A DNA stretch of 63,481 nt. It comes from Roseomonas sp. GC11. Its GTDB lineage: Bacteria > Pseudomonadota > Alphaproteobacteria > Acetobacterales > Acetobacteraceae. Under the pieces are notes generated by a model. The model did no database searches and had not been told where the DNA came from. It saw only the letters and a program-made list of their open reading frames with translations. Below are positions 6,531 to 46,473 of this stretch, piece by piece (the stretch's first letter is position 1; each line of letters opens with the position of its first letter). A program made the position numbers and the translations under genes. Location: the NCBI RefSeq assembly GCF_024437745.1, contig NZ_JANFNY010000024.1:1-63481 (forward strand). The letters run 5' to 3'.

Positions 6531-7000
6531 GCGGCCCCGCCCCGCGCAGCCTGTGCTGGGAGGATGTGCAGCCGGGCCAGGAATGGCGCACGGACGAGCA
6601 CGCCATCACGGCGGAGGAGATCGCCGCCTTCGCCGCGCTGACGCGCGACCACCACCCGCTGCACACGGAGGAGGCTTATGCCCGCGCGCGCGGCTTTGGC
6701 GGCGTCATCGCGCACGGGCTGTTCGGCCTCGCGCTGATGGAAGGATTGAAGACGGAGCTGCGTCTCTACGAGACCACCTCCATCGCCTCGCTCGGCTGGG
6801 ACAAGGTGCGCTTCCGCTGCGCCATCCTGGCCGGGGACCGCGTGCATCTGCGCTTCCGCTTCCTCTCCGCGCGGCCGAGCCGCGAGGCGGGGCGCGGCGT
6901 CGTGATGGAATCGCTCGAACTCATCAACCAGCACGGCGAGGCGGTGATCACCGCCGAGCATGCCGCGCTGGTGCTGGGGCGGGATGCGCGTCCCGCCTGA
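6524..7000 (+). CDS. MaoC-family enoyl-CoA hydratase
   Basis: A 158-residue single hot-dog-fold protein. The hydratase motif is seen as TRDHHPLHTEEAYA (residues about 43-56), with the Asp/His pair of R-specific enoyl-CoA hydratases, followed by GGVIAHGLFGLAL. It overlaps the CoA-transferase by seven bases. With the dehydrogenase and CoA-transferase it makes a short module: activate, desaturate, hydrate. The substrate chain is unknown. Confidence 0.88.
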   Translation: MLSGPAPRSLCWEDVQPGQEWRTDEHAITAEEIAAFAALTRDHHPLHTEEAYARARGFGGVIAHGLFGLALMEGLKTELRLYETTSIASLGWDKVRFRCAILAGDRVHLRFRFLSARPSREAGRGVVMESLELINQHGEAVITAEHAALVLGRDARPA

Positions 7001-7106
7001 GGGCGGCACGCTTCTTGCTGCTTCTGCTTTTTCCGTTGCTTGCGTCTGAGAGGACGGCCGGGGCCTGCACACCGGCCGGGCAAATCCGCGAACGGAGACA
7101 TACAGG

Positions 7107-21892: not shown

Positions 21893-21962
21893 GACGCGGG
21901 GGAAAAGTATTCCCCCGCACCCCCTTCCTCTCTGTCAGGGCCGGCCGCCGCTGGCGGCCGGC
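21893..21962. repeat. Double-stem intergenic repeat, copy 2 (overlaps leuD 3' end)
   Basis: The same two stems as at 12591-12660: GCGGGGG/CCCCCGC, then the perfect ten-base stem GCCGGCCGCC/GGCGGCCGGC (21940-21962). The stop codon of leuD (21935-21937) lies between the stems, and the second stem encodes the last residues of LeuD (ASGGRP). Confidence 0.82.
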
Positions 21963-22563
21963 AGCTGCGCCCAGGGGCGGAGGAGCGCGTCCGCCGCGGC
22001 GAAGGCCGTGATGGCCTCGGCATGGCTCAGGGTCAGGTCCAGGTCGTTCCAGCCATTCAGCAGCTTCACGCGCCACACCGGGTCGATGCGGAAGGGCAGG
22101 GTCAGGCCATCCGCCCGCACCTGGCATTCCGTCAGGTCCACCACCAGCCGCTGCCCCCCGGCCTGGAGCCAGGAGAGCAGAATCTCCACCCCATCCTCCT
22201 CCAGCCGGGCGGGGAGGAGGCCGTTATTCACGGCGTTGCTGGAAAAAATATCGCCGAAGCTCGGCGCCAGCACGCAGCGGAAGCCGGCATCCACCAGCGC
22301 ATAGACCGCCGCCTCCCGCGAGGAGCCGCTGCCGAAATTGCGCCGCGCCACCAGCACCTGCGCCCCCGCGCGCTCCGGGCGGTCGATCGGCGAGTGGGCG
22401 AGGGGGCTGCCATCCTCGGCGAAGCGCAGGTCGTGCAGCAGGAAACGGCCATAGCCCTCGCTGCGCGGGCGCTTCATGAAACGGGCGGGGATCAATTGGT
22501 CCGTGTCCACATTGGCCAGCGGCAGCGGGCAGGCAGTGGCGGCGAGGGTGGTGAAAGGCTGCA

Positions 22564-22564
<1 letters not shown>
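21935..22564 (-). CDS. leuD: 3-isopropylmalate dehydratase small subunit-like (LeuD family)
   Basis: A 209-residue aconitase-fold swivel domain. Typical segments are ANVDTDQLIPARF, RRNFGSGSSREAAVYAL and APSFGDIFSSNAVNNG. With the large subunit it would move water across a branched hydroxy-dicarboxylate. Its start overlaps the leuC stop (ATGA). The pair is not next to leuA or leuB and instead faces a GntR-regulated catabolic operon, so a role as citraconate, dimethylmaleate or related hydratase is as plausible as leucine synthesis. The last residues are encoded by a repeat element. Confidence 0.88.
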
Positions 22565-23997
<1,433 letters not shown>

Positions 23998-24045
23998 CTC
24001 GCTCCTCCCTTCCGTCCCGTTCGCGACGATGCCGCAGGAAAATCG

Positions 24046-24078
24046 TTGACGCAATCCTCCTGTCTCGTAGGCTAGACA
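24046..24078 (+). promoter_or_regulatory. Predicted promoter with overlapping palindromic operator
   Basis: TTGACG (24046-24051) is followed 16 bases later by TAGGCT, a plausible -35/-10 pair for the GntR-headed operon. The 18-base palindrome TGTCTCGTAGGCTAGACA (24061-24078) has TGTCT/AGACA arms and covers the -10 box. Placement and symmetry fit autorepression by a HutC-type GntR protein. Confidence 0.6.
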
Positions 24079-24116
24079 GCATCCGGTCTGGAAAACCATA
24101 CAGGAGATCACTCCGC

Positions 24117-24947
24117 TTGGACGCCGCCGTCGAACCCTTCAAGGCGCGCCGCCTCTATCTGCTGCTGCGCGACCGCATCGCCGGCGGCGATGTCGCGGCG
24201 GGGTCGCGGCTGCCCGGCGAGCCGGATCTGGCGGCCGAGCATGGCGTCTCCCGCGTCACCATCCGCCGCGCGCTGGACCAGCTGGCGGCCGAGGGGCTGG
24301 TGGAACGCCGCCCCGGAGTCGGCACCTTCGTCCGCGCCGGTGGCATGATGGCGCCGACGGTGGTCGATTTCGCCGATGTCTTTTCCCACCTGAAGGAAAT
24401 GGGGCGCCGCACCGAGGTGCGCCTGCTCGCCTTCGGCTATGTGCAGCCCCCGGCGGCGGTGGCGGAGGCCCTCGGCCTCGCGGCCGGGGAGCGGGCGCAG
24501 CGCGCGGTGCGCGTGCGGCAGATGAATGGCGCGCCCTTCTCCCACCTCACCACCCATGTGCCGGAGCGCATCGGCCTGACCTATTCGGAGGCCGAGATGG
24601 CGTCCCAGCCGCTGCTGACGCTGCTGGAGCGCAGCGGCGTCGGCGTCGCGCGCGCGCGCCAGTCGATCGGCGCGACGCTGGCGGGTCCGGACGTGGCGCA
24701 GGCGCTCAGCCTGGAGATCGGCGCGCCGCTGCTCTCCCTCACGCGCGTGGTCGAGGATGAGGAGGGCAGGGCGGTCGAGCACCTGCACGCCCTCTATCGC
24801 CCGGACCGCTTCGCCTTCCAGATGCAGCTGCAGCGCACGGGGGCCGATGGCGCCCGGCGCTGGAGCCCATTGCCGCCGCTGGCGGCCAAAACTGAAGAAA
24901 CTGCCACGTCACGGACCACGCGCAGCAAGAGGAAGTCGTCGTCATGA
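24117..24947 (+). CDS. GntR-family regulator, HutC/UTRA type
   Basis: A 276-residue regulator. A winged helix (residues about 5-70; LRDRIAGGDVAAGSRLPGEP, VSRVTIRRALDQLAAEG) is followed by a UTRA ligand domain (about 95-250). TTG at 24117 is the best start: AGGAG lies ten bases upstream and the HTH begins just inside. An ATG at 23961 would start within leuC and cross the promoter palindrome. The stop overlaps the next start by four bases, so the regulator is co-translated with the transporter operon it probably controls. Confidence 0.85.
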   Translation: MDAAVEPFKARRLYLLLRDRIAGGDVAAGSRLPGEPDLAAEHGVSRVTIRRALDQLAAEGLVERRPGVGTFVRAGGMMAPTVVDFADVFSHLKEMGRRTEVRLLAFGYVQPPAAVAEALGLAAGERAQRAVRVRQMNGAPFSHLTTHVPERIGLTYSEAEMASQPLLTLLERSGVGVARARQSIGATLAGPDVAQALSLEIGAPLLSLTRVVEDEEGRAVEHLHALYRPDRFAFQMQLQRTGADGARRWSPLPPLAAKTEETATSRTTRSKRKSSS

Positions 24948-26161
24948 CCTCGCCCCGCCTCACTCTCACGCGCCGCGCCGCCCTGCGCGCCGGTGCCATG
25001 CTCCCCGTGCTGGCCGCCCCGCGCCTGCTGCGCGCGCAGCCTGCCGCGGTGAAGATCGGCATCCTCCAGCCGCTGACCGGCGCGCTGGCGCAGGATGGCG
25101 ATCTCGGCCGCCTCGGCGCCACCCTGGCTGCGGAGGCGATCAACGCCGCCGGCGGCCTGAAGGAACTCGGCGGCGCCAGGGTGGAACTCGTCGTGGCCGA
25201 TGCCCGCTCCAACCCCGAGGCGGCGGCGCAGGAGGTCGAGAAGCTGCAGGCGGAAGGCGTGGTCGCCATCGTCGGTGGCTTCGCCAGCCCGATCTGCCTC
25301 GCCGCCAGCCAGGCCGCCGCGCGCTACGACCTGCCCTATATCGTCGATGTCGGTGTCTCCGACCAGATCACCACGCGTGGCCTGCGCAACACCTTCCGCT
25401 TCGCCCCGGGCTTCGGCACGGTGACGAACACGGCGCTGGCCAATCTCGTCCGCCTCAACACCGCCGGTGGCCGCGCCGCCAAGACGGTCGTGCTGGTGCA
25501 TGAGGATGGCCTCTTCGGCTCCGGCCTCGCCAAGCTGATGCAGACGGAACTGCCGAAGCTCGGCTTCGAGGTGCTGGAGACCATCGCGCACCCGACCCCG
25601 GCGCGCGACATGTCGAATGTCGCGCTGCGCATCCGCGCGCTGAACCCCGATCTCGTCATTCCCTCCAGCTACTACGGCGAATTCGTCCTGCTGGCGCGCA
25701 CGCTGCGCCAGCAGCGCATCCGGCCCAAGGGCATCTACGCCGTGCTGAACGGCGCCGCCTCCAACTACCGCTTCGTCAAGGAATTCCCTGAGGCGGCCGA
25801 GGGCGTGATGGACTGCAACCACTGGCACGATCCCCGCAAGGAGGAGGCCGTGGCGCTGAAGAAGAAGGTCGAGGCCGATGGCCGGCTCTGGGCCTATAAC
25901 GTGCCGCTGAACTATTCCTGCGTGAAGCTGGTGGCCGATGCCATCGAGAATGCCGGTGCCGCTGACCGCGGCAAGGTGACCGAGGCGCTGGCCGCCTCCA
26001 ACTTCCGTGGCCACATCATGCCCTATGGCCCGACGAAGTTCATCAATGGCCAGAACCAGGGCGCGGCCCCGGTGAACACCCAGGTGCAGGGCGGCGACAT
26101 CAAGGTGATCTTCCCCGAGAGCTTCGCCGACGCCAAGCCGATCTTCCCCCTCCAGGGCTGA
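24944..26161 (+). CDS. Liv-type ABC transporter substrate-binding protein
   Basis: A 405-residue periplasmic binding protein. A Tat-like leader (LTRRAALRAGAMLP) is cleaved near LLRAQ (about residue 31). The ligand fold begins AVKIGILQPLTGALAQDG and includes the hinge segment ADARSNPEAAAQEVEKL. It is the first structural gene after the regulator and is followed by a complete set of permeases and ATPases. Its ligand is presumably the molecule degraded by the downstream enzymes. Confidence 0.9.
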   Translation: MTSPRLTLTRRAALRAGAMLPVLAAPRLLRAQPAAVKIGILQPLTGALAQDGDLGRLGATLAAEAINAAGGLKELGGARVELVVADARSNPEAAAQEVEKLQAEGVVAIVGGFASPICLAASQAAARYDLPYIVDVGVSDQITTRGLRNTFRFAPGFGTVTNTALANLVRLNTAGGRAAKTVVLVHEDGLFGSGLAKLMQTELPKLGFEVLETIAHPTPARDMSNVALRIRALNPDLVIPSSYYGEFVLLARTLRQQRIRPKGIYAVLNGAASNYRFVKEFPEAAEGVMDCNHWHDPRKEEAVALKKKVEADGRLWAYNVPLNYSCVKLVADAIENAGAADRGKVTEALAASNFRGHIMPYGPTKFINGQNQGAAPVNTQVQGGDIKVIFPESFADAKPIFPLQG

Positions 26162-26171
26162 TCGCCGGCTC

Positions 26172-27044
26172 ATGTATTCTCCCGCCATCGTGGCCGAGGC
26201 CATGGTGAACGGCCTGATGACCGGGGCGGCCTACGCCCTGGTCGCTCTCGGGCTGACCCTGGTCTATGGCGTGCTGCACATCGTCAACTTCGCCCATGGC
26301 GCCCTGCTGACCTGCGCCATGTTCGCGGTGCTCGGCATGGAGCAGGGGCTGGGCATCGGCCCCTATGCCGCCATCCTGCCGCTGGGCGTGCTGTTCTTCC
26401 TGCTCGGCTACGCGCTGCAACGCTACGTCATCGGCCCTTCCAGCCATGGGGAGGACCGCAACACCCTGCTCGTCACGCTGGGCATTTCCATCGTTCTGGA
26501 GAATGCGCTGCTGGCGGCCTTCCGCTCGGACACGCGCACGCTCGGCGGCGATATGGGCTTCGATGTCGTCGAGCTCGGCCCCATGCTGCTGTCGCGGCCG
26601 CGCCTGGTCGGCTGCGCCGTGGCGCTGGTGGTGGCGGCGCTGCTCTGGCTGCTGCTGGCGCGCAGCGATACCGGCCGCGCCATCCGCGCTGTGGCGAAGG
26701 AGCGCTTCGGCGCCCAGGTGGTGGGCATCGATCCGCGCCATATCTTCGCCGTCACCTTTGGCATTGGCTGCGCCTGCCTGGCGGTGGCGGCCTGCCTGCT
26801 GCTGCCGACTTTCTACGTCAACCCGCGCGTCGGCAACGCCTTCGTGCTGGTGGCCTTCACCATCGTCGTGCTCGGCGGCATGGGCTCGGTGGTGGGAGCG
26901 CTGGTCGGTGGCCTCGTCATCGGCGTGGTCGAGAGCCTGGGCGGCCTGCTGCTGGGTGAAAGCCTCGGCCAGCTCGGCATCTTCCTCATCTTCATCCTGG
27001 TGCTGCTGCTGCGGCCCACGGGCCTGTTCGGGGCAAGGGCATGA
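26172..27044 (+). CDS. LivH-type ABC permease
   Basis: A 290-residue membrane protein with about eight hydrophobic segments. It starts with the LivH hallmark GLMTGAAYALVALGLTLVYG (trimmed) and carries the cytoplasmic coupling stretch SDTGRAIRAVAKERFGAQVVGID. It lies ten bases after the binding-protein gene and overlaps the next permease by four bases. Confidence 0.92.
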   Translation: MYSPAIVAEAMVNGLMTGAAYALVALGLTLVYGVLHIVNFAHGALLTCAMFAVLGMEQGLGIGPYAAILPLGVLFFLLGYALQRYVIGPSSHGEDRNTLLVTLGISIVLENALLAAFRSDTRTLGGDMGFDVVELGPMLLSRPRLVGCAVALVVAALLWLLLARSDTGRAIRAVAKERFGAQVVGIDPRHIFAVTFGIGCACLAVAACLLLPTFYVNPRVGNAFVLVAFTIVVLGGMGSVVGALVGGLVIGVVESLGGLLLGESLGQLGIFLIFILVLLLRPTGLFGARA

Positions 27045-27997
27045 AGCCGCGCGACCTTCTGCCCCTGCTGCTGCTGCTGGGTGCCCTGGCGCTGACGCCG
27101 CTCTTCGCCTCCAACCTGCTGCTGAACTTCCTCGTCTCCGCGCTGATCATCGCGCTGGGCGCGCAGGGCTGGAACCTGCTCGGCGGCTATGGCGGCCAGC
27201 TTTCCTTCGGCCATGCCGCGCTCTTCGGCACGGGGGCCTATGCCACGGCGATCCTGCAGGTGAAGTTCGGGCTGAATGCCTGGCTGGCCTTCGCCTGCGG
27301 CATCGCGCTCGCGGCGCTGGCCGGCTGGATCATCGGCTATCTCAGCTTCCGTGCCCGGCTGCGCGGTTCCTACTTCGCCCTGGTGACGCTGGCCTTCGCC
27401 GAGGTTCTGCGCATCCTCGCCAATGCCGCCGACTTCACCGGAGGTGCTGCGGGCCTGCTGATCAAACTCCAGCCAGGGCTTGCGAATTTCCAGTTCGCCA
27501 GCCGCGCCGGCTATCTCTGGGCGGTGCTGGCCTGCATCCTCGTGGTCGGCCTGATGACACTGTGGATCGACCGGGGCCGTTTCGGCGCGCAGCTCGTCGC
27601 CGTGCGCGAGAATGAGGATGCGGCGCGGGCGCTCGGCGTCGATGTATTGGCGACGAAGCTGCGTGCCATCACCCTCTCTGGCGCCATCACCGGTGCGGCA
27701 GGCTGCCTCTACGCGCAGAATTTTCTCTACCTGGACGCCAGCATCGCCTATGGCACCTGGATTTCGGTGGAACTGCTGATCGCCGCCATCGTCGGCGGCC
27801 TCGGCACCGTGCTGGGGCCTGTGATCGGTGCCCTGGCCCTGCACGGGCTGGGCGAGGTGACCAAGGGCCTGCTCGGCTGGCTGACCGGGATCGACCTCGT
27901 GCTGTTCGGCATCATCCTGATCGCCGCCGTGGCCTTCGTGCCGAGTGGGCTGGTGGGGGCGCTGCGGCGCCTGCGCATGCGGGGAGCCGCCCGATGA
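27041..27997 (+). CDS. LivM-type ABC permease
   Basis: A 318-residue membrane protein, the partner of the LivH-type subunit. It shows LGAQGWNLLGGYGGQLSFGHAA (trimmed), the family signature, and the coupling loop VAVRENEDAARALGVDV. Start and stop both overlap the neighbouring genes (ATGA), which indicates tight translational coupling. Confidence 0.92.
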   Translation: MKPRDLLPLLLLLGALALTPLFASNLLLNFLVSALIIALGAQGWNLLGGYGGQLSFGHAALFGTGAYATAILQVKFGLNAWLAFACGIALAALAGWIIGYLSFRARLRGSYFALVTLAFAEVLRILANAADFTGGAAGLLIKLQPGLANFQFASRAGYLWAVLACILVVGLMTLWIDRGRFGAQLVAVRENEDAARALGVDVLATKLRAITLSGAITGAAGCLYAQNFLYLDASIAYGTWISVELLIAAIVGGLGTVLGPVIGALALHGLGEVTKGLLGWLTGIDLVLFGIILIAAVAFVPSGLVGALRRLRMRGAAR

Positions 27998-28746
27998 GCC
28001 TCCTGATTCTTGAAGCCCTTAGCAAGCGCTTTGGTGGCCTGCTCGCGGTGGACAATGCCTCGCTGGTGGTGCGGGAAGGCAGCATCACCGGGCTGATCGG
28101 CCCGAATGGCGCGGGCAAGACGACCCTCTTCGCCCTGGCCTCCGGCTTCCTGGAGCCGAGTTCAGGCCATGTCATCTTCTCCGGGGAGGATGTGACGGCG
28201 GAGGAGCCGCATCTGCGCGCCCGCCGTGGCATCGCGCGCACCTTCCAGATCGTCCAGCCCTTCCAGGGTCTGACGGTGCGCGAGAACATCGCTGTCGGGG
28301 CCTATCTCCGCCATGCCGGGCGCGATGCCGCGCTGGCGATGGCCGAGAGCGTGGCGCGGGAAGTCGGCCTGGCGCCGCTGCTCGACACGCCGGCGGCGGC
28401 GCTGACGGTGGCCGGGCGCAAGCGGCTGGAACTGGCCCGTGCCCTCGCCACCCAGCCGCGCCTGCTGCTGCTGGACGAGGTGCTGGCGGGCCTCAACCCC
28501 TCCGAGGTGCGTGACATCCTGCCTGTTCTGCGCGGCATCCGCGCCCGTGGCGTCACCATCCTGATGATCGAGCATGTGATGCAGGCGGTGATGAATCTCT
28601 GCGACCACGTCCACGTCCTGGCGCAGGGGCGGATGATTGCCGAGGGGCCGCCGCGCGCGGTCTGCAACGATCCCGTGGTGATCGAAGCCTATCTGGGCCA
28701 TGGCGCCGCGGCACGCATCCGCGCCGAGGGAGGCGCGCATGCTTGA
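27994..28746 (+). CDS. LivG-type ABC ATPase
   Basis: A 250-residue nucleotide-binding subunit with Walker A (GPNGAGKTTLFAL), the LivG-specific IARTFQIVQPFQGLTV segment, a weakly conserved signature (LTVAGRKRLELARALA, with VAG instead of SGG) and Walker B (LLLLDEVLAGLNP). It overlaps the LivM-type gene before it and the LivF-type gene after it. Confidence 0.92.
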   Translation: MSLLILEALSKRFGGLLAVDNASLVVREGSITGLIGPNGAGKTTLFALASGFLEPSSGHVIFSGEDVTAEEPHLRARRGIARTFQIVQPFQGLTVRENIAVGAYLRHAGRDAALAMAESVAREVGLAPLLDTPAAALTVAGRKRLELARALATQPRLLLLDEVLAGLNPSEVRDILPVLRGIRARGVTILMIEHVMQAVMNLCDHVHVLAQGRMIAEGPPRAVCNDPVVIEAYLGHGAAARIRAEGGAHA

Positions 28747-29440
28747 GGTGAAGGGGCTGCACGCCGGCTATGGTGTGGTGGAGGTCCTGCGCGGGATCGA
28801 CATGGCGGTGTCGCGCGGGGAGATTGTTGCCGTGCTGGGCGCCAATGGCGTCGGCAAGACGACCCTGAACAAGGTGTTCTCCGGCGTCATTCCGGCCTGG
28901 GCGGGTGAAATCCTGTTCGAGGGGCAGCGCATCGACCGGGCCACGCCGGATGCCATCGTCGCGGCTGGCCTCATCCATGTGCCTGAGGGGCGCAAGATTT
29001 TTCCCAACATGACGGTGCGCGAAAATCTCGAACTCGGCAGCTATCGTCGGGGAAAGCCGCGCCGGGCCCGTAACCTGGAGCATGTCTTCTCGGTCTTTCC
29101 GCGCCTGCGCGAGCGGTCCGCGCAGGCCGCCGGCACGCTGTCCGGCGGTGAGCAGCAGATGCTGGCCATTGGGCGTGGCATGATGGCTGAGCCGAATCTT
29201 CTGATCCTCGACGAGCCTTCGCTGGGCCTTTCGCCACTGCTGGTCGAGGAGATGTTTACCCTGATCCGCCGGCTGAATGCCGACGGCCTTCCCATCCTGC
29301 TGGTCGAGCAGAACGTGGTGCAATCGCTGGAAATCGCTTCCCGTGCCTACATCCTTGAGAACGGCCTCTTCGCCCTGTCGGGCAGCGCCGCCGAGGTGAG
29401 CGGGAATCCGGAACTGCGCCGCGCCTATCTCGGCATGTGA
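28739..29440 (+). CDS. LivF-type ABC ATPase
   Basis: A 233-residue nucleotide-binding subunit. Visible are Walker A (GANGVGKTTLNKV), VPEGRKIFPNMTVRENLELG, the signature LSGGEQQMLAIGRGMM and Walker B (LLILDEPSLGLSP). ATG at 28739 is chosen because GAGGGAGG precedes it and the LivF N terminus (MLEVKGLHAGYG) begins there. It completes the importer; the MmgE/PrpD gene starts eight bases later. Confidence 0.92.
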   Translation: MLEVKGLHAGYGVVEVLRGIDMAVSRGEIVAVLGANGVGKTTLNKVFSGVIPAWAGEILFEGQRIDRATPDAIVAAGLIHVPEGRKIFPNMTVRENLELGSYRRGKPRRARNLEHVFSVFPRLRERSAQAAGTLSGGEQQMLAIGRGMMAEPNLLILDEPSLGLSPLLVEEMFTLIRRLNADGLPILLVEQNVVQSLEIASRAYILENGLFALSGSAAEVSGNPELRRAYLGM

Positions 29441-29447
29441 GGTCACG

Positions 29448-30854
29448 ATGAACATCGTCACCGCCGGCGTTGAGCCGGCCTCCGTGCTGCTGCGTCGGCA
29501 GCGGCCGGAATGGCTTGAGGAGTGGGGCCGCTTCGCCGCCTCCTTCTCCTTCGCCGACCTGCCTGAAGAAGCGCGCGACCGTACGCGCCTGGTCCTGTTG
29601 GACAGCATCGGTGTCATCGCCGCCGGCATGCAGGAGCCCGAACTGGCATCCCTGCTCCGGCAGCCAACTTATGCGGCGGGAGGCACGGCCATCGCCATCG
29701 GCGCCGGCCATACCTTGCCGCCCCTGCTCGCCGCCTTTGCCAATGGCACCGCCGGCACCATGCTGGAACTGGACGAAGGCAATCAATACGCCCGTGGCCA
29801 TCCCGCGATTCATGTCGTGCCTGCCGCCCTGGCCGCGGCTCCGCGCGATGGCGCTGCCCTGCTCGGCGCCATGGCCCTGGGCTATGAACTGGGCGCGCGG
29901 ATTGGCATTGCCAGCAAGCTGCGCGTGACGATGCATCCGCATGGAACCTGGGGCACGCTCGGGGCTTTTCTGTCGGTGGCGCATCTGCGCGGTGCCGATG
30001 CCCAGCAGATCATGCAGGGCATCAACCTCGCTTCGAGCCTTGGACTGTCTACCAGCCGCCGGACCATGCTGGAGGGTGCGACCGTCCGTAACACCTATGC
30101 CGGTTTCTCCAATCAGCTGGGCCTGATGGCATGGGATCTGGTCGCGGCCGGCTTCACCGGTGAGACCGATGGTGTCGGCGCTGTCTATGGCGGCATTATC
30201 GCTGAGGATTTCCAGCCCTCTGCCATGACGGATTCGCTTGGCGTGCGTTGGGAAATCGCGAGGAACTATTTCAAACGGCACGCCGCCTGCCGCTATACGC
30301 ATGGCGCTCTTGATGCGCTGGGCATGCTGCGTGCGCGGTTGCCCGGTCTGCGCGTCGAGGACATCGCCGCGATATCAGTGGAAACTTATGTCTGGGCAGC
30401 GCAACTTGATCTGCCTGCGCCGGCCAACATGCTCTCTGCCAAATTCTCGATACCCTTTGCCCTGGCAACGGCCCTGGTGCATGGCGAGGCCAGCGTCCCC
30501 GCCTTCCGTCCGCCTGCGCTCCAGGATCCTGCGATCCGCGATCTGGCAGCCCGTGTCACTGTGCGCGAAGATCTCGCACTGACAGCCCAACTGCCTGGCC
30601 TGCGGCCGGCCCGCGTTGCCATGACTTTGCGCGATGGCTCTGTGCACCAGGCCGAAGTGCTGACCAATCGCGGCGATACCGAAGATCCCTACGAGGCTGC
30701 CGACATCATCGCAAAGTTCCGCTCTCTGGCTGTTCCTGTCTGGGGAGAAGCTGGGAGCACGGCGCTGCTCGATGCGGCTCTGGAAGTCGATCAAGCGGGT
30801 GGACTCGACCGTCTTTTCTCCTTGCTGGCGCTACCGCCGCGGAGCATGAACTGA
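29448..30854 (+). CDS. MmgE/PrpD family protein
   Basis: A 468-residue protein of the 2-methylcitrate dehydratase/cis-aconitate decarboxylase/epimerase fold. Family segments seen are LVLLDSIGVIAAG, the LELDEGNQYARGHPAIHVVPA active-site region (trimmed) and YELGARIGIA. A dehydratase or isomerase step on a tricarboxylate or branched dicarboxylate is the usual chemistry. It overlaps the lyase gene by one base (TGATG). G+C and codon choice from here on are visibly lower than in the flanking genes. Confidence 0.87.
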   Translation: MNIVTAGVEPASVLLRRQRPEWLEEWGRFAASFSFADLPEEARDRTRLVLLDSIGVIAAGMQEPELASLLRQPTYAAGGTAIAIGAGHTLPPLLAAFANGTAGTMLELDEGNQYARGHPAIHVVPAALAAAPRDGAALLGAMALGYELGARIGIASKLRVTMHPHGTWGTLGAFLSVAHLRGADAQQIMQGINLASSLGLSTSRRTMLEGATVRNTYAGFSNQLGLMAWDLVAAGFTGETDGVGAVYGGIIAEDFQPSAMTDSLGVRWEIARNYFKRHAACRYTHGALDALGMLRARLPGLRVEDIAAISVETYVWAAQLDLPAPANMLSAKFSIPFALATALVHGEASVPAFRPPALQDPAIRDLAARVTVREDLALTAQLPGLRPARVAMTLRDGSVHQAEVLTNRGDTEDPYEAADIIAKFRSLAVPVWGEAGSTALLDAALEVDQAGGLDRLFSLLALPPRSMN

Positions 30855-31735
30855 TGAGCCTAAAGGACAAGCTGAGCCATGCGGCTCCTGTCGTCGCCCC
30901 TGGCGTCTATGATGCGCTGACAGCCAGCCTCGCGGAGAGCGCGGGTTTTCAGGCACTGTATGTATCAGGTGCGGCCATTGCTTATACGCGGCTTGGGCGG
31001 CCTGATATCGGCCTCGTTGCCATGACCGAGGTTGCCGAGACCATCGGCCTGATTCGCGATCGTGTTGCCTTGCCGCTGATCGTTGATGCCGACAACGGTT
31101 ATGGCAATGCACTCAACACGCAGCGCACCGTCCGGCTTTTCGAGCGTGCGGGTGCGACCGCTCTGCAGTTGGAAGACCAGACGCTGCCAAAGCGCTGCGG
31201 GCATCTTCAGGGAAAATCGCTGATCAGCGCCGGTGAGATGGCCGGAAAGATCAAGGCTGCCGTTGACGCCCGTCATGATGTGTCCACGCTGGTGATCGCA
31301 CGGACGGATGCGGTGGCTGTCGAGGGTATGGATGCCGCACTGGACCGTGCGCGCCTCTATGCCGAGGCAGGTGCCGACATCCTGTTTGTTGAAGCTCCCC
31401 GCTCAAGCGAGCAATTGTCGCGCATCGCGCGTGAACTGGGTGGGCTGCGTCCGCTGCTGGCCAATATGGTCGAGGGGGGTGAAACTCCCATCGCCTCAGC
31501 CGCCAAGCTCGGCGAACTCGGTTTCCAGCTGGTCATTTTTCCGGGTGGCATTGTGCGCGCACTGGCCCACACTGCCCGCGACTACTACGCCTCCCTGGCG
31601 CAGCACGGTAGCAATCAACCCTTCGCCGCGCGCATGTATGATTTCAATGCGCTGAACGAGTTGATCGGGACGCCGGAGATGCTGGCACTCGGCGAAACCT
31701 ACGCACAGCACGAGCGGAAGGAAGATGCGGCATGA
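30854..31735 (+). CDS. Isocitrate lyase/PEP mutase superfamily C-C lyase
   Basis: A 293-residue TIM barrel. The metal and substrate site reads VDADNGYG (Asp78, Asp80), then ELED-type residues at 106-108 (LED) and the catalytic loop PKRCGH with Cys115. The cysteine in this loop marks true lyases (methylisocitrate or dimethylmalate lyase type) rather than phosphonate mutases. Expected products are pyruvate or glyoxylate plus an acid. It overlaps HyuB by four bases. The substrate is presumably the hydroxy-dicarboxylate made by the dehydratase/hydratase genes of the same locus. Confidence 0.88.
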   Translation: MSLKDKLSHAAPVVAPGVYDALTASLAESAGFQALYVSGAAIAYTRLGRPDIGLVAMTEVAETIGLIRDRVALPLIVDADNGYGNALNTQRTVRLFERAGATALQLEDQTLPKRCGHLQGKSLISAGEMAGKIKAAVDARHDVSTLVIARTDAVAVEGMDAALDRARLYAEAGADILFVEAPRSSEQLSRIARELGGLRPLLANMVEGGETPIASAAKLGELGFQLVIFPGGIVRALAHTARDYYASLAQHGSNQPFAARMYDFNALNELIGTPEMLALGETYAQHERKEDAA

Positions 31736-33384
31736 GTGGCATTGACCCCGTCACTCTGGCCATCCTGAAAGGGCGGCTGGAACAGATCGCCGATGAGATG
31801 GATGCAACGCTCTATCGCTCGGCCTTTAATCCGATCATCGCCGAGGCCAGGGATGCCTGCCACGGTTTCTACCATGCCGAGACCGGCGAAACCCTGGTGC
31901 AGGGTGCCAATGGCCTGCCGATTTTCGTTGGTGCCATGGCCTTTGCCGTCAAGGCGGTGATTGACAAGGTGGCCCAGTCGGGAGGCGTGCGCCCGGGCGA
32001 CACCTTCCTGTTCAACGACCCTTATGATGGCGGAACGCATCTGAACGATTTCCGTCTGGTGCGGCCTGTCTTTCGGCAGGGAAAGCTGTTCTGCTGGATG
32101 GCGTCGGTTGGCCATTGGCTGGATATCGGCGGCAATGTTCCTGGTGGCTACAATCCCAAGGCGACCGAGAGCTTCCAGGAAGGCGTGCGCATTCCCCCCG
32201 TCCGGCTGATGACGGAAGGCCGGATGAATCAGGATCTTCTGGATATCCTGGCTGCCAATACGCGCGTCCCGCAATCGAACTGGGGTGATCTCAACGGTCA
32301 GCTCAACGCCCTCGACCTTGGCGAGCGCCGCTTTGCCGCCCTGCTCGACGACTATGGCGAAGCCACGGTGGCAGAGGCTTTCCACGCCTTCTCTGACCGT
32401 GCCGATGCGATGATGCGCACGGCCATCCAGGGCCTTCCGGATGGACGCTACAGTTTCGAGGATGTCCTCGACAATGATGGCATCGATGACAAGCCGCTGA
32501 CCATCGCGCTGGATCTCACCATCGCGGGCGAGACGATGGCGTTGGATTTCTCGCGCTCCTCGCCCCCGGTGCAAGGGCCGGTGAACATCGCGCGCTCCAC
32601 GGCGATTGCGGCCTGCTATGTCGCCTTGAAGCATGTTTTCACCGAGGTGCCGGCCAATGCCGGCTGTCTCCGCCCGATCACCTTCACGGTGCCGGAGACA
32701 ACGCTGCTGGGCGCCACGGCACCGCGTCCTGTCGCGGGCTATACGGAAACCATCCTGCGCCTCATCGGTGTCATTTTCGGTGCCCTGGCCAAGGCGGATC
32801 CCGCGCGTGCTACGGCGGCGCCCTTCGGGACCATCAATGCCCTGTCCCTCGCCGGTCATCGGCCCGATGGATCACGGTGGGTGATGTTTTCCTTTTTTGG
32901 TGGTGGGCTCGGCGGAAATCCGGAAAGCGATGGCCTGAGCCACGCCAACAATCCGATCTCCACCGCCACGATTCCGCCGGTCGAAATCCTGGAGGCCGCC
33001 TATCCTGTCCTGTTCCGCCAATGGGCCTTGCGTGCGGACTCCGCAGGACAGGGCCAGCACCGAGGTGGCCTCGGCGCGGTCTATGAGATCGAGCCTTTGA
33101 CCGATGCCCGCGTTTCGCTGCTCGGCGAGCGTGGCAAGGCTGCTCCCTTCGGCGTTTCGGGTGGTAGCGCAGCTGCGTTGAATCGCTTCACCTGGTGGGA
33201 TGAAGCCGGCGCGCACCATCCACCGATGGTCTCGAAGATTACGGATATCGCCCTCAGGGCGGGCCAGCATATCCGTCTTGAAACACCGGGCGGCGGCGGT
33301 TGGGGTGATCCCACGCTGCGCGATCCGCAGGCGGCCGAGCGTGACCGCCGCCTTGGCTATGTGACGTCGGAGTCCGCGGCATGA
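31732..33384 (+). CDS. Hydantoinase B/oxoprolinase-family subunit
   Basis: A 550-residue HyuB-type subunit. It begins DPVTLAILKGRLEQIADEMD, then has ARDACHGFYHAETGE, PGDTFLFNDPYDGGTHLND and the C-terminal glycine-rich GGGGWGDPTLRD, all typical of the family. With HyuA it would open a cyclic amide (hydantoin, oxoproline or imide) using ATP. The gene order B then A, and the overlaps on both sides (four bases each), indicate a coupled complex. Confidence 0.92.
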   Translation: MSGIDPVTLAILKGRLEQIADEMDATLYRSAFNPIIAEARDACHGFYHAETGETLVQGANGLPIFVGAMAFAVKAVIDKVAQSGGVRPGDTFLFNDPYDGGTHLNDFRLVRPVFRQGKLFCWMASVGHWLDIGGNVPGGYNPKATESFQEGVRIPPVRLMTEGRMNQDLLDILAANTRVPQSNWGDLNGQLNALDLGERRFAALLDDYGEATVAEAFHAFSDRADAMMRTAIQGLPDGRYSFEDVLDNDGIDDKPLTIALDLTIAGETMALDFSRSSPPVQGPVNIARSTAIAACYVALKHVFTEVPANAGCLRPITFTVPETTLLGATAPRPVAGYTETILRLIGVIFGALAKADPARATAAPFGTINALSLAGHRPDGSRWVMFSFFGGGLGGNPESDGLSHANNPISTATIPPVEILEAAYPVLFRQWALRADSAGQGQHRGGLGAVYEIEPLTDARVSLLGERGKAAPFGVSGGSAAALNRFTWWDEAGAHHPPMVSKITDIALRAGQHIRLETPGGGGWGDPTLRDPQAAERDRRLGYVTSESAA

Positions 33385-35435
33385 GCGCGACCATCGTCGG
33401 TGTCGATGTCGGCGGCACCTTCACGGATCTCTTCTGTTTCGATGAGGCGAGCGGTCGATTCCGCACGGCCAAGGTGCCTTCGAACCGTGGCGATGAAGCC
33501 GTGGGCTTCCTCGAAGGTCTGAAGACCTTTGGCCCCGTGGCGCAACTCGCCTCCGTCGTGCATGGCACCACCGTCGGCACCAATGCCCTGCTGGAACGCA
33601 AGGGTGCGAAGGTCGGCCTGATCACCACGCGCGGTTTCCGGGACGTGCTGGAAATGCGCCGGCGTGACCGGCTGCGCACCTGGGGTCTCTGGGGCGATTT
33701 CCTGCCGGTCGTTGATCGTGACATGCGCCTGGAAGTCAGCGAGCGGACCCTGTCCGATGGCAGCATCCGTGAGGCCGTGCAGACAGCGGAAGTGCAGGAA
33801 GCCGTGCGGCACCTGCTGCATATGGGCGCTGAGGCGCTCGCCATTGTCTTCATCAATGCCTATGCCAACCCTGCCAATGAACAGGCCGCGCTTGAAGCCG
33901 CCCGCGCGGTATGGCCGTATGAAACCATCGCCTGCTCAACACAGATCCTGCCCGAGATCCGTGAATTCGAGCGGACCTCGACCACTGCTCTGAACGCCTA
34001 CCTGCAACCGGTCGTGGGGAGTTATCTCGGCAAGCTCGATGCCGCCCTGCAAGGTGAGGGATTCACGGGCAAGTTCCACATCGTGCAATCCAATGGCGGT
34101 GTGATGTCGACCGCCACCGCGCGGCGCCTGCCGGTGCGCACGGCCCTGTCGGGCCCTGCCGCCGGTGTCATCGCGGCGGCGGCGATCGCGCGGGAGGCTG
34201 GCTTCCCGGATGTCATCACCGGCGATCTCGGCGGCACCTCTTTCGATGTCTCGCTGGTTGTCGGGGGAGCCACGGCGCTGGCCGCGCAGACCACCATCGA
34301 CTTCGGCATGGTCATCCGCACGCCAATGATCGAGATCAGCACCATCGGTGCCGGTGGTGGTTCCATCGCGCATGTCGATGCGGGCGGCCTGCTGCAGGTG
34401 GGGCCGGAAAGCGCGGGCTCGCGCCCTGGCCCTGTCTGCTATGGCCAGGGCAATACCCGCCCGACGCTGACCGATGCCAATGTTGTCCTCGGCCGCATCA
34501 ATGCGGAGCGGCCGATCGGTGGCAAGTTGCAGCGCCTGGATGTGGAGGCGGCCAAGGCCGCCATCCTGGAACATGTCGGCCGCCCGCTGGGTCTCGACGC
34601 CATGGCGGCGGCGGAAGCCATTCTGCGCGTGGCCAATGCGCGCATGGCAGGTGCTATCCGCCTTGTCTCGATCGAGCGTGGTCATGATCCCGCGCGTTTC
34701 GCGGCGGTGCCCTTCGGCGGTGGCGGCGCGCTTCATGCTGGCGCGCTGATTCGCGAGGTTGGGTTGAAAGCCGCGCTCGTGCCACGCTATCCGGGCGTGA
34801 CGTCCGCGCTGGGCTGCGTCATCGCCGATATCCGCCACGACCAGGTGCAGACCGTCAATCTGACGCTCGACACGCTCGACGAAGCCACGCTGGACCAGCG
34901 CATGGTGGCGGAAGCCGCTGCTGCCCGCGATGTTGTCGAAGCCGCTGGCCTCGCCGTGGAGAGGATCGATACGGTCTTCGAACTGGACATGCATTACGCC
35001 GGCCAGACCCACACCGTGGCGGTGCCCTTGCCCGTCGCCGTCGGGGAAGGAACGACGGGCGTCACCTGTGCCATCATTCGCGCGGCGTTCGAGGCAGCCT
35101 ATCAGACCAGTTTCTCCCGCCTCCTGCCCGGGCTTGGCGTGCGCATCGTCAACCTCCGCACGGCGGCCATTGGCCGGCGGCCGCGCTTCGATCTCGGCAT
35201 GCTGGCCCCTGAGGCGGGGACGACGCTGGAGGCGGCCCGTCGTGGTACGCGCCCCGTCTGGTTCGAGGGCGCTTGGCACGAGGCCGCCATCTTCGCCCGC
35301 CTGGAACTGCCCGTGGGGGCGGAGGTCGCAGGCCCCGCCATCCTGGAGCAGCCCGATGCGACGACCGTCGTCGATCCTGGCCTGATCGCGCGTGTCGATC
35401 GCCTGGGCAATGTCATCGTGGAGCGCGCGGCATGA
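33381..35435 (+). CDS. Hydantoinase A/oxoprolinase-family ATP-binding subunit
   Basis: A 684-residue HyuA-type subunit with an actin-like ATPase core. The phosphate-1 loop is GVDVGGTFTDLFCF, followed by VVHGTTVGTNALLERKGA, GDLGGTSFDVSLVVGG (phosphate-2) and IGAGGGSIAHVD...GPESAGSRPGPVCYG. A C-terminal hydantoinase domain with DMHYAGQTHTVAVPLP follows. It forms the catalytic pair with the gene before it. The stop overlaps the isochorismatase-fold gene (ATGA). Confidence 0.92.
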   Translation: MSATIVGVDVGGTFTDLFCFDEASGRFRTAKVPSNRGDEAVGFLEGLKTFGPVAQLASVVHGTTVGTNALLERKGAKVGLITTRGFRDVLEMRRRDRLRTWGLWGDFLPVVDRDMRLEVSERTLSDGSIREAVQTAEVQEAVRHLLHMGAEALAIVFINAYANPANEQAALEAARAVWPYETIACSTQILPEIREFERTSTTALNAYLQPVVGSYLGKLDAALQGEGFTGKFHIVQSNGGVMSTATARRLPVRTALSGPAAGVIAAAAIAREAGFPDVITGDLGGTSFDVSLVVGGATALAAQTTIDFGMVIRTPMIEISTIGAGGGSIAHVDAGGLLQVGPESAGSRPGPVCYGQGNTRPTLTDANVVLGRINAERPIGGKLQRLDVEAAKAAILEHVGRPLGLDAMAAAEAILRVANARMAGAIRLVSIERGHDPARFAAVPFGGGGALHAGALIREVGLKAALVPRYPGVTSALGCVIADIRHDQVQTVNLTLDTLDEATLDQRMVAEAAAARDVVEAAGLAVERIDTVFELDMHYAGQTHTVAVPLPVAVGEGTTGVTCAIIRAAFEAAYQTSFSRLLPGLGVRIVNLRTAAIGRRPRFDLGMLAPEAGTTLEAARRGTRPVWFEGAWHEAAIFARLELPVGAEVAGPAILEQPDATTVVDPGLIARVDRLGNVIVERAA

Positions 35436-36046
35436 ACCAGGATGTGATCCCCGTCACTGAAACCGCTTTGCTGGTCGTCGATCTCCAGAATGACTTCCTG
35501 CACCCCGAGGGAGCCTATGCGCGCGGCGGCCTTGCGGAACCGGCCATCGCCGCGCTGCCGCAGCGCCTGAAGCCGCTGGCCGAAGCCTTGCGGGCGAAGG
35601 GGGGCTGGGTGGTCTCCACCCAGTTCACCCTGGTGCCGGGCAAGGATGGCGAGCCGATCATCTCGCCCCACCTCAAGGCGCTGCGGCCTTTCCTGCGCAA
35701 GGGGGATTTCTGCCCCGGCGCCTGGGGGCACCAGCTGGTCGATGCCTTGCAGCCTGCCGATCTGTCGGTGGAGAAGGTGGCCTACTCCGCCTTCTACATG
35801 ACGCGTCTGGAATGGGTGCTGCGCAAATCGGGCATCCGCCGCCTGCTGGTGGGTGGCATCGTCACCAATGGGGGCGTCGCCTCGACGGTGCGCGACGCCC
35901 ATGTGCGCGATATCGACGTCACCGTGCTGGAAGATGGCTGCGCCGCTTTCAGCGCGGAGACCCACGCAACGGCCATCGCCGCCCTGCGCCCCGTCTGCCA
36001 TATCGCCACCATTGGCGAGGCCCTGGCGGAGATCGCCGTGGCATGA
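35432..36046 (+). CDS. Isochorismatase-fold protein lacking the catalytic cysteine
   Basis: A 204-residue protein of the isochorismatase/cysteine hydrolase superfamily. Asp17 (LLVVDLQNDF) and a lysine at 115 (VEKVAYSAF) occupy two of the three catalytic positions. The nucleophile loop reads GGIVTNGGVASTVRDA, with Gly148 where amidases have cysteine (TNxCVxST). Isochorismatases such as EntB and PhzD also carry glycine there, so this is not a normal amidohydrolase. It overlaps HyuA and the oxidoreductase by four bases each. It might act on a vinyl ether or enol-type intermediate; its substrate is unknown. Confidence 0.85.
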   Translation: MNQDVIPVTETALLVVDLQNDFLHPEGAYARGGLAEPAIAALPQRLKPLAEALRAKGGWVVSTQFTLVPGKDGEPIISPHLKALRPFLRKGDFCPGAWGHQLVDALQPADLSVEKVAYSAFYMTRLEWVLRKSGIRRLLVGGIVTNGGVASTVRDAHVRDIDVTVLEDGCAAFSAETHATAIAALRPVCHIATIGEALAEIAVA

Positions 36047-37434
36047 CGGTTCTTCCTGTTCCTGACACCGGTTTTGAGCTCACCCTGCCGGTGGTGGTGA
36101 TCGGTGCCGGCGCCGCTGGCCTCGTGGCGGCGTTGGCCCTCCGCCAGGCCGGGCAGGATGTCCTGGTGCTGGAGCGCGATCCGGTGCCGCGCGGCTCCAC
36201 CGCGCTCTCTGCCGGCCTCATTCCCGCGTCAGCCACGCGCTGGCAGCGTGCCGCGGGCATCGAGGACAGCGCGCTCCTGTTCGGCGCCGATATCATGGCC
36301 AAGGCGCAGGGCGAGCCGGATCCGGCGATGGTGCAATCCGTCGTCGAGCGCATCGGGGGCGTGCTGGAATGGCTGGCGGATCGGCATGGCCTCGATTTCT
36401 CGGTCATCACCGATTTCCGCTACCCGGGCCACTCGGCCTGCCGCATGCACGGCCTGCCCAGCCGCTCCGGCGAGGAACTGGTGGACCGCCTGCGTGAAGC
36501 CGCGGAGGCGGCGGGTGTCGAGATCCTTTGCGATGCCCACGTCATCGCCCTCTACGCCGATGATCAGGCGCGGGTGCACGGGCTGCGCTTCCGGCGCCCG
36601 GATGGCAGCGAGGAAAGCCTGGGCTGCGAGGCCCTGATCCTCGCCTGCAACGGCTATGGCGGCAATCCGGATCTCGTCGCGCGGCATGTGCCGCAGCTGG
36701 CGGGGGCGCTCTATTTCGGCCATGCCGGCAATCAGGGCGATGCCGTGCTCTGGGGGGAGGCCCTGGGGGCGGCAACGCGCCATCTCTCTGGCCACCAGGG
36801 GCATGGCTCCGTCGCGCATCCCATCGGTATCCTGATTTCCTGGGCGACCATGACCCAGGGTGGCGTGCAGGTGAACCTGTTGGGCCAGCGCTTTTCCGAT
36901 GAGAGCCACGGTTATTCCGAGCAGGCGGCCACCGTGCTGCGCCAGCCTGAAGGCACGGTGTGGAGCATCTTTGATGAGCGGATTGCCGGCATCGCCCGGC
37001 AGTTCGAGGATTTCCGCCAGGCCGAGCAGGCGGGCGTGGTGGTCACGGCCGCTGATCTTCCGGCCCTCGCCGCGGTGACGCGCCTGCCATGCGAAGCCCT
37101 GGCGGCGACGCTGGAAGAAGTGGAGCGGATGAAAGCAGGTGCGGAGAAGGATCGCTTCGGGCGGGACTTCGCCGGGCAGCCGCCGCTTCAGCCGCCCTAT
37201 CGCGCGGTGCGCGTCACGGGCGCCCTGTTTCATACGCAGGGTGGGCTGGTCGTGGATGGGCAGGCGCGCGTGCTGCGGCCGGATGGCGCGCCGCTTCCCA
37301 ATCTCTACGCGGCGGGGGGCGCGGCCTGTGGCGTGTCCGGCAGCCGTGCGGAAGGATACCTGTCGGGCAATGGGCTTTTGACGGCGGTGGCGCTGGGGCA
37401 TGCGGCGGGCGTTGCCGCGGCGGGGCGGGGTTGA
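36043..37434 (+). CDS. FAD-dependent oxidoreductase (fumarate reductase/KsdD type)
   Basis: A 463-residue flavoprotein. The Rossmann FAD loop is VVVIGAGAAGLVAALALRQAG, with GSTALSAGLIPA as the second contact. FHTQGGLVVDGQARVL and NLYAAGGAACGVSG at the C terminus match the flavoprotein subunit of soluble fumarate reductases. It would reduce or introduce a C=C bond next to a carbonyl. It has no heme or iron-sulfur domain. It is the last gene of the operon and is followed by a bidirectional hairpin. Confidence 0.88.
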   Translation: MTVLPVPDTGFELTLPVVVIGAGAAGLVAALALRQAGQDVLVLERDPVPRGSTALSAGLIPASATRWQRAAGIEDSALLFGADIMAKAQGEPDPAMVQSVVERIGGVLEWLADRHGLDFSVITDFRYPGHSACRMHGLPSRSGEELVDRLREAAEAAGVEILCDAHVIALYADDQARVHGLRFRRPDGSEESLGCEALILACNGYGGNPDLVARHVPQLAGALYFGHAGNQGDAVLWGEALGAATRHLSGHQGHGSVAHPIGILISWATMTQGGVQVNLLGQRFSDESHGYSEQAATVLRQPEGTVWSIFDERIAGIARQFEDFRQAEQAGVVVTAADLPALAAVTRLPCEALAATLEEVERMKAGAEKDRFGRDFAGQPPLQPPYRAVRVTGALFHTQGGLVVDGQARVLRPDGAPLPNLYAAGGAACGVSGSRAEGYLSGNGLLTAVALGHAAGVAAAGRG

Positions 37435-46382: not shown

Positions 46383-46473
46383 TGGCGGATGGGGTGGGAT
46401 TCGAACCCACGATACCCTTTTGAGGTATACACACTTTCCAGGCGTGCGCCTTCGACCGCTCGGCCACCCATCC
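46383..46473 (-). tRNA. tRNA-Ser(GGA)
   Basis: On the minus strand the 91-base molecule starts GGATGGGTGGCCGAG and ends CCCATCC, a G discriminator and an encoded CCA. The acceptor stem pairs over seven bases. The anticodon GGA lies at 46439-46437, and the long variable arm is typical of serine tRNAs. The T loop reads TTCGAAT. Confidence 0.95.

Follow-up and report, generated by a model that had tools for sequence, protein, structure and literature searches.

The DNA analysed here (hereafter the window) is a stretch of 63,481 nt from Roseomonas sp. GC11 (contig NZ_JANFNY010000024.1). It carries a set of 14 genes, named from Pfam and NCBIfam profile matches, which form two divergent units around a single 119-base control region (23998-24116): LeuC and LeuD run leftward, and 12 genes run rightward over 24117-37434. 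The gene identities given in a preliminary description of this DNA agree with the profile names, and the divergent arrangement with mostly overlapping rightward genes described there is also found. The range proposed there designates the same gene set, but its start at 24061 falls inside the control region and LeuC and LeuD lie outside it. The features are listed below with their coordinates, strand and basis.

21899-21916, minus strand: terminator-like hairpin 3' of LeuD (terminator scan; single sites are weak, with 14 in the scanned stretch against 6.3 expected)
21935-22564, minus strand: LeuD-type hydratase small subunit (Aconitase_C; TIGR00171, 164.2 bits against a cut-off of 116.25)
22564-23997, minus strand: LeuC-type hydratase large subunit (TIGR00170, 646.6 bits against a cut-off of 560.25; C356, C414, C417)
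24046-24073, plus strand: probable promoter TTGACG-16-TAGGCT (conservation in an alignment of six intergenic regions)
24060-24079, unstranded: putative operator O1, CTGTCT-N8-AGACAG (alignment, window and genome pattern scans, upstream-frame count)
24086-24101, unstranded: second palindrome O2, GTCTGG-AAAA-CCA(G/T)AC (alignment; free of mismatches in L026 and L027, with a single one in the window)
24117-24947, plus strand: GntR/UTRA regulator with a TTG start (Pfam/NCBIfam)
24944-26161, plus strand: periplasmic binding protein (SBP), Peripla_BP_6 (Pfam; nearest solved chain 8wch_A, E 1.5e-40)
26172-27044, plus strand: LivH-type permease (Pfam)
27041-27997, plus strand: LivM-type permease (Pfam)
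27994-28746, plus strand: LivG-type ATPase (Pfam)
28739-29440, plus strand: LivF-type ATPase (Pfam on the frame from 28700; start 28739 chosen)
29448-30854, plus strand: MmgE/PrpD-family protein (PrpD), putative accessory hydratase or isomerase (Pfam; nearest solved proteins IDS-epimerase and cis-aconitate decarboxylase)
30854-31735, plus strand: lyase of the isocitrate lyase (ICL)/PEP-mutase superfamily, loop PKRCGHLQGK (Pfam/NCBIfam, structure-chain alignments, ortholog rows)
31732-33384, plus strand: HyuB, metal-site subunit of an ATP-dependent cyclic-amide hydrolase (Pfam; D41, H103, D106, H128)
33381-35435, plus strand: HyuA, ATP-binding subunit (Pfam)
35432-36046, plus strand: isochorismatase-fold protein without the catalytic Cys (TNGGV; Pfam, alignments, ortholog rows)
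36043-37434, plus strand: FAD_binding_2 oxidoreductase, fumarate-reductase/TcuA-like (FAD enzyme; Pfam/NCBIfam, alignments)

Co-transcription of the rightward run as one tight operon is likely, because nine of its 11 junctions are overlaps of 1-8 bases (exactly 4 bases in seven cases) and the other two are gaps of only 10 and 7 bases. A frame upstream of LeuC (24108-24788) had been considered as a LeuD candidate and was rejected, as it has no Pfam match; LeuD was found downstream of LeuC instead.

In all six intergenic regions of the alignment, TTGACG is followed after 16 bases by TAG-CT, with a palindrome CTGTC(T/C)-N8-AGACAG lying over the presumed -10 element and a second palindrome behind it. 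A consensus promoter scan reported no sigma-70 site in the control region, so that the promoter is marked from conservation alone. The O1 palindrome is kept in all five related loci aligned, with one T/C change in two of them. Allowing up to three mismatches, the pattern CTGTCTNNTAGNCTAGACAG has a single match in the 5.25-Mb genome, which is O1 itself without mismatch (the reversed-pattern control likewise gave one match); in the window, one match was found against 0.08 expected. More broadly, of the 54 loci with enough sequence, 34 have a TGTC-N8..12-GACA frame in the 220 bases preceding GntR, compared with 390 of 20000 pieces drawn at random from these loci, although shared ancestry means that these are not 34 independent events. 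Microvirga, Methylobacterium and Azospirillum have differing bases inside the same TGTC/GACA frame.

Conservation of the gene set

Relatives were collected by scanning GTDB species genomes with the PrpD alignment; the 80 best of 286 were kept, which means that they are ranked by one protein. The 56 loci with at least 21.2 kb are referred to as full loci, and a gene was counted when its match covered >30% of the query at >=35% identity. PrpD is thus present in 56/56 by construction, and three of the 80 loci belong to genomes also used in the same-genus comparison below. All 14 genes are present in 41 of the 56 full loci, which come from other genomes, mostly Alphaproteobacteria. Taken singly, the FAD enzyme is found in 55 full loci, HyuA, HyuB and the isochorismatase-fold protein in 54 each, the lyase in 44 and LeuC in 43. 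Of the 56, LeuC is divergent in 16, on the same strand in 27 and absent from 13; the FAD gene also shifts position between loci while staying in the set. By comparison, the commonest flanking family from outside the set occurs in 20 of the 80 loci. Judging from this conservation, the 14 genes are functionally linked, as expected if they belong together in the way first proposed. The FAD enzyme, which had been left out of the chemistry suggested in the preliminary description, is part of the core given its presence in 55 of 56 full loci.

Two narrower comparisons bear on the same point. When 58 genomes were searched (own genome included), close PrpD relatives (68-80%) were found in five of 16 other genomes of the genus. 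All five carry the importer, PrpD, lyase, HyuB, HyuA, isochorismatase-fold protein and FAD enzyme in identical order, and LeuCD adjoins them in four. In the fifth, P. wenyumeiae, LeuC (83%) and LeuD (68%) are located on another contig beside a second regulator, 76% identical to the window GntR; this second GntR-LeuCD group (L169, 7583-11876), away from the main operon, also includes another FAD_binding_2 gene (40%). In a 398-genome sample of the phylum (own genome included), orthologs of the isochorismatase-fold protein at 57-72% occur in seven other genomes, one of them in another class, the next match being at 39%. Six of these seven loci were retrieved, and all six contain HyuAB and the lyase.

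Carriers of the set include Azospirillum, Methylobacterium, Microvirga, Bosea, Bradyrhizobium and relatives of Roseomonas; in Sulfitobacter, Neorhizobium and Paraburkholderia it is located on plasmids. Tistrella has it divided between two plasmids, with the importer, PrpD, lyase and FAD enzyme on pTM1, and GntR, HyuB, HyuA, the isochorismatase-fold protein and LeuCD on pTM2. PrpD, a member of the operon in the window as first described, is nevertheless dispensable: it has no match in L136-L141, L174-L177 and L190 (L136 and L138 end early on the importer side), several of which are otherwise near-complete.

Some loci show another protein family in the place of a set member. The Verticiella locus (L168/L090) has PrpD, a divergent GntR and no HyuAB, and the best HyuA matches in that genome reach 36%. 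Its run consists of a Cys-type isochorismatase, two PuuE-related genes, LeuC, LeuD, SBP, LivHMGF, the lyase (47%) and the FAD enzyme (53%). In L095 and the closely related Sphingobium locus L189, HyuAB is again missing from the stretch, and two PuuE-related genes occur along with a Cys-type isochorismatase; the best HyuA match is 39% in the L095 genome, and none was found on the Sphingobium plasmid, which alone was searched. The replacing proteins are relatives of PuuE that stay below its allantoinase cut-off. According to two papers (PMC9304392, PMC3084791), the PuuE branch comprises allantoinase as well as cyclic imide hydrolases, the latter represented by HxnM and by an imidase homolog from Pseudomonas putida. 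Because PuuE-related hydrolases replace HyuAB in three loci, without a close HyuA in the genomes or record searched, the HyuAB step is best read as cyclic amide or imide hydrolysis, which supports the cyclic-amide opening originally suggested.

Other steps vary too. LeuCD of another type is found in L136, L138, L140, L141, L175 and L176 (37-72% to each other's kind), and the family models, run for L140 and L138 only, place L138 in the LeuD/DmdB family. In L095 and L189, no ICL-type lyase occurs in the stretch, which encodes a CoA transferase and a protein resembling HMG-CoA lyase, so a replacement of the lyase by these two proteins is possible; a 45% lyase relative exists elsewhere in the L095 genome (for Sphingobium, the plasmid alone was again searched). 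Uptake may rely on different systems: Sulfitobacter has a DctP tripartite ATP-independent periplasmic (TRAP) transporter, G394 (L139) has a DctP-family protein beside LeuD, and L095 and L189 (about 5340-7580) have a TonB receptor and a major facilitator superfamily (MFS) transporter upstream of PrpD, unlike the ATP-binding cassette (ABC) or TRAP variants. Added genes include a tautomerase in L139, L174, L179 and L191, and an acyl-CoA dehydrogenase with a CoA transferase in L190. The latter pair was considered as a replacement of the FAD enzyme on Tistrella pTM2, but the FAD enzyme (69%) is carried by pTM1 of the same organism and these genes are additions. In Tistrella and Neorhizobium (L179, 13345-18025; L191, 11631-14947), a tautomerase occurs together with two genes of the Asp/Glu-racemase family and an additional FAD enzyme (48-52%). 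A replacement of LeuCD by the racemase-family genes was rejected, as Neorhizobium carries leuC-leuD and a second FAD oxidoreductase just upstream of GntR.

The surroundings of the set add a few observations. On the left, an AtuA-family gene (PF07287; 20039-21574, plus strand) converges on LeuCD; it was rejected as a member of the set, being found in one of the 80 loci and in two genomes of the same-genus comparison (one of them identical). On the right lies a binding-protein-dependent ABC transporter, whose ATPase matches the Liv ATPases of six related loci at only 27-36%. The sole tRNA gene found in the window is tRNA-Ser(GGA) (46383-46473, minus strand). Among the other loci, HyuA of G014 (L019, 13189-15241) matches in two pieces in neighbouring frames, and the gene may be broken or misread. 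On a haloarchaeal megaplasmid (L188, 2399-12757), two PrpD-family genes lie together with a Liv-type importer and an FAD enzyme (42%), and an isochorismatase-family gene is nearby; this is a possible archaeal cousin.

Residues and family models of the enzymes

HyuB residues D41, H103, D106 and H128 are found in 74/74 rows and correspond, by motif and spacing and without a CapB alignment, to the metal ligands of CapB (Asp41, His99, Asp102 and His124; PMC8453981). Caprolactamase is the best NCBIfam match of both Hyu subunits, at 508.4 and 313.5 bits, well short of the cut-off of 1000 for each; carboxylase models reach 297 and 133 bits, also below cut-off. In the isochorismatase-fold protein, D17 and K115, assigned by motif and RutB alignment, are present in 71/71 rows.

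The lyase has the KxCGH loop of the ICL/PEP-mutase superfamily, as KRCGH in 65/65 rows. The next residue is L in all 65, as in 4iqd, while the four methylisocitrate-lyase alignments compared (the 9hgk group not among them) have KRCGHR. Thus, the lyase lacks the loop of PrpB (2-methylisocitrate lyase) and also scores below its equivalog cut-off (290.8 against 354.4 bits). It has EGG and PGG where the solved lyases compared have EFG and no PGG; over this stretch, the classic methylisocitrate lyases rank below dimethylmalate lyase 3fa3, which in turn comes after the 9hgk group and 4iqd. These residues are a weak pointer to a dialkylmalate-type pocket.

In the FAD enzyme, ESHGYSEQ stands where flavocytochrome fumarate reductases have E(L/I)TTRDKA, and G-Y-S-E is found in 72/72 rows. 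The Arg in the TTRDKAS stretch of solved fumarate reductases is catalytic, and the FAD enzyme does not have it. Its TcuA model scores are below cut-off (146.5 against 369 bits and 94.4 against 372.55), and L-aspartate oxidase models match weakly.

LeuC residues C356, C414 and C417, the presumed [4Fe-4S] ligands, are invariant in 58/58 rows. By score and cysteines the operon pair falls in the LeuCD leucine-biosynthesis family, but it is not orthologous to the presumed housekeeping leuC. The preliminary description had left room for the operon pair being the only leuCD of the genome, which turned out not to be the case: a second leuC, 59% identical to the operon LeuC, is located at C66 and followed by LeuD and a 380-residue gene, a layout on which we call this pair housekeeping. 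A quick tree was built from 44 LeuC rows. The nine presumed housekeeping sequences group together (support 100), and none of the operon LeuC sequences falls within that group. Those of the operon are not cleanly monophyletic (3 changes): eight additional copies from Falsiroseomonas lie among or next to them, and L095 and L168 sit on long branches. Because of the other leuC-leuD at C66 and the separate housekeeping clade, the operon LeuCD is very likely not the leucine pair. Further LeuC-like matches in the genome are an aconitase-family gene at C99 and a two-piece match at C44. At C44 (L025, 2984-6210, minus strand), another lyase-like gene, matching that of the operon at 41%, adjoins a 594-residue aconitase-family frame, possibly another hydratase-lyase pair.

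A candidate pathway and its alternatives

Our tentative proposal, in which we place a little less than even confidence as a complete scheme, is an inducible catabolic operon for a small cyclic imide or amide that bears alkyl groups and is carboxylated. The Liv-type transporter would import this compound, HyuAB would open its ring with ATP, and the isochorismatase-fold protein would complete nitrogen removal by a non-cysteine mechanism. The FAD enzyme would then perform a redox step, most simply by dehydrogenating an alkylsuccinate to the alkylmaleate. Hydration of the alkylmaleate to a branched malate would be the task of LeuCD, assisted in some lineages by PrpD as an accessory hydratase or isomerase, and the ICL-type lyase would cleave this malate into a 2-oxo acid (pyruvate if a methyl group is on the hydroxyl carbon) and a carboxylic acid. 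GntR would bind the TGTC/GACA palindromes and be released by the substrate or an intermediate. The order of the steps, the direction of the FAD step and the substrate are what we infer, the chemistry being that known for the families; the alkyl-maleimides or hydantoins named in the preliminary description are likewise candidate substrates. The hydration and cleavage of the preliminary description agree with this family chemistry, with LeuCD and the lyase staying together and with the presence of another LeuCD type in the same place, all at family level only. An imide fits better than a hydantoin because there is no deaminating enzyme in the core, and plain succinimide is a poorer fit than an imide with alkyl groups, since succinate would require no FAD enzyme, hydratase or lyase.

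On paper, the carbon skeleton fits remnants of tetrapyrroles (haem, bilins or chlorophyll), namely alkylated succinimides or maleimides; hematinic-acid imide and ethylmethylmaleimide are examples. Such compounds are improbable as the actual substrates. Ring opening and nitrogen loss would give a dialkylsuccinate or dialkylmaleate, then a dialkylmalate, and finally pyruvate plus glutarate or butyrate. A literature search for tetrapyrrole-imide catabolism turned up fossil pigments, haemin and geoporphyrins only; for an isonicotinate or citrazinate route, the 20 of 64 papers listed were mostly carbon-dot chemistry, and none of them was about catabolism by title.

Several observations count against the cyclic-imide proposal. 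Which way the FAD enzyme works is guesswork, and substrate, product and inducible expression are all putative. The PuuE-related proteins of L168/L090 and L095 score 146.9, 118.2, 114.1 and 93.3 bits, compared with a PuuE allantoinase cut-off of 424.6. The amidase Cys position of the isochorismatase-fold protein is occupied by Gly148 in 71/71 rows, and by Gly in 12/12 further loci. This residue aligns opposite the nucleophilic Cys of RutB and of cysteine hydrolase 6xix, and Gly is found at the same position in two solved YecD-like proteins (1j2r and 3txy); true isochorismatases, which hydrolyse an enol ether, lack this Cys as well. The fold and family first assigned to this protein hold, but it lacks the nucleophile of the cysteine-type amidases. 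Other points concern gene content: L137 is without LeuCD, PrpD or FAD enzyme in the 20 kb retrieved; Paraburkholderia L175 is without FAD enzyme or PrpD; L142 and L143, with weak isochorismatase matches, are without HyuAB; L023 combines a distant PrpD (41%) and HyuAB at 35% with no lyase match; and in L165 the HyuAB-like genes and LeuCD adjoin a CoA transferase and an enoyl-CoA hydratase, which is another pathway type.

A further departure is that of the Falsiroseomonas-type clade, which keeps the importer, PrpD, HyuAB and the FAD enzyme, yet has neither lyase nor LeuCD nearby in 10/10 full loci, in which GntR was likewise not seen. In the seven genomes of this type that were searched, lyase-like matches elsewhere reach at best 44-48% and LeuC-like matches at best 61-65%. 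A CoxL-like molybdenum hydroxylase gene follows the FAD gene in 12/12 loci (L038, L048, L051, L070, L073, L077-L081, L085 and L092; L083 is too short to judge), and an RraA-like aldolase is present in six of the 12. The molybdenum hydroxylase fits an earlier oxidation of a ring carbon next to nitrogen. In this clade, either the pathway end is different or unlinked, or the substrate differs.

Among the alternatives, a hydantoin route is unlikely, though it accounts for part of the data: HyuAB or PuuE would open a 5-substituted hydantoin, the isochorismatase-fold protein would decarbamoylate the resulting N-carbamoyl amino acid, and the FAD enzyme would oxidise the amino acid before hydration and cleavage. 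Hydantoin-type hydrolases exist in both the HyuAB and PuuE families (PMC8453981, PMC9304392). In addition, the PuuE-variant loci L189, L095 and L168 have a Cys-type isochorismatase-fold protein with a TSGC motif, which is known from N-carbamoylsarcosine amidase; Asp/Glu/hydantoin-racemase-family genes are present in two clusters (L179 and L191), and the weak L-aspartate oxidase matches of the FAD enzyme would suit amino acid oxidation. However, an amino-acid product needs deamination before LeuCD, while no aminotransferase, ammonia lyase or racemase is found among the 14 core genes, and the window protein lacks the Cys. Equally doubtful, or slightly more so, is a methylcitrate-like route in which the ring compound would yield a tricarballylate-type acid, a TcuA-like FAD enzyme would produce an aconitate-type acid, and PrpD, LeuCD and the lyase would lead to pyruvate (or glyoxylate) and succinate. 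The TcuA match, the methylisocitrate lyases as the overall closest proteins to the lyase and a 46% PrpD relative near tcuA-tcuB in Variovorax RA8 speak for it; the invariant L of the loop, the EGG/PGG residues, the PrpB score and the dispensability of PrpD speak against it.

The last two alternatives each concern one pair of proteins. HyuAB could be a ketone carboxylase, similar to acetone or acetophenone carboxylase, with the remaining genes handling the carboxylated product. Such carboxylases do belong to the HyuAB family (PMC8453981) and their NCBIfam models match below cut-off, but the caprolactamase models outscore them for both subunits and the swap for PuuE-related hydrolases fits hydrolysis rather than carboxylation, which makes this reading very improbable. 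Still less credible is that LeuCD is the leucine pair, adjoining the operon by chance: it passes the LeuC and LeuD cut-offs, but this must be set against the C66 pair, the separate housekeeping clade and the retention of LeuCD with the operon in 43 full loci, on either strand.

Relation to described pathways

No described pathway with this gene combination was found in the open-access library searched, as judged by title and abstract start, in keeping with the preliminary description. The closest ending is that of anaerobic nicotinate fermentation, with dimethylmaleate hydratase (DmdAB) and dimethylmalate lyase: both systems combine a LeuCD-family hydratase with an ICL-superfamily lyase, and some relatives of the operon carry LeuD/DmdB-family subunits. 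Unlike that pathway, the operon would open the ring by HyuAB or PuuE-related proteins and has the FAD enzyme in its core. Methyleneglutarate mutase (B12), methylitaconate isomerase and enamidase are not among the Pfam matches of the operon genes, the rest of the genome not having been searched for them. The 2-methylcitrate cycle ends with PrpD, AcnD/AcnB and PrpB, and the operon similarly brings together PrpD-, aconitase- and PrpB-family proteins; it differs in having no citrate synthase, LeuCD instead of AcnD/AcnB, and a lyase outside PrpB by cut-off and loop. The creatinine/N-methylhydantoin pathway, which uses HyuAB and N-carbamoylsarcosine amidase, resembles the operon in the succession of HyuAB and an isochorismatase-fold protein, but the operon protein lacks the catalytic Cys, and that pathway has no use for a hydratase or a lyase.

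For ring opening, the caprolactamase CapAB/ATP-dependent lactamase family shares two subunits, four metal-ligand residues and the best family-model match with HyuAB (PMC8453981), whereas the operon scores far below its cut-offs and has other partner genes. In the fungal nicotinate pathway, the cyclic imidase HxnM opens a cyclic imide and the amidase HxnN hydrolyses the half-amide (PMC9304392). The PuuE/HxnM-type relatives that replace HyuAB in three loci recall this system, which belongs to other taxa and for which the accessible part of the same paper reports no hydratase-lyase end.

Annotated records name genes of the set 3-isopropylmalate dehydratase, hydantoinase, cysteine hydrolase, pyrimidine utilization protein B, oxaloacetate decarboxylase and isocitrate lyase family, and pathway predictions from these genomes may therefore mislead. 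The proposed pathway is open to step-by-step testing, because natural substitutes exist for the ring opener, the hydratase type and the importer, and a short list of compounds suffices. This widespread gene set probably encodes a whole pathway, from the import of a small nitrogen-ring acid through ring opening to the cleavage of its carbon chain into ordinary metabolites.

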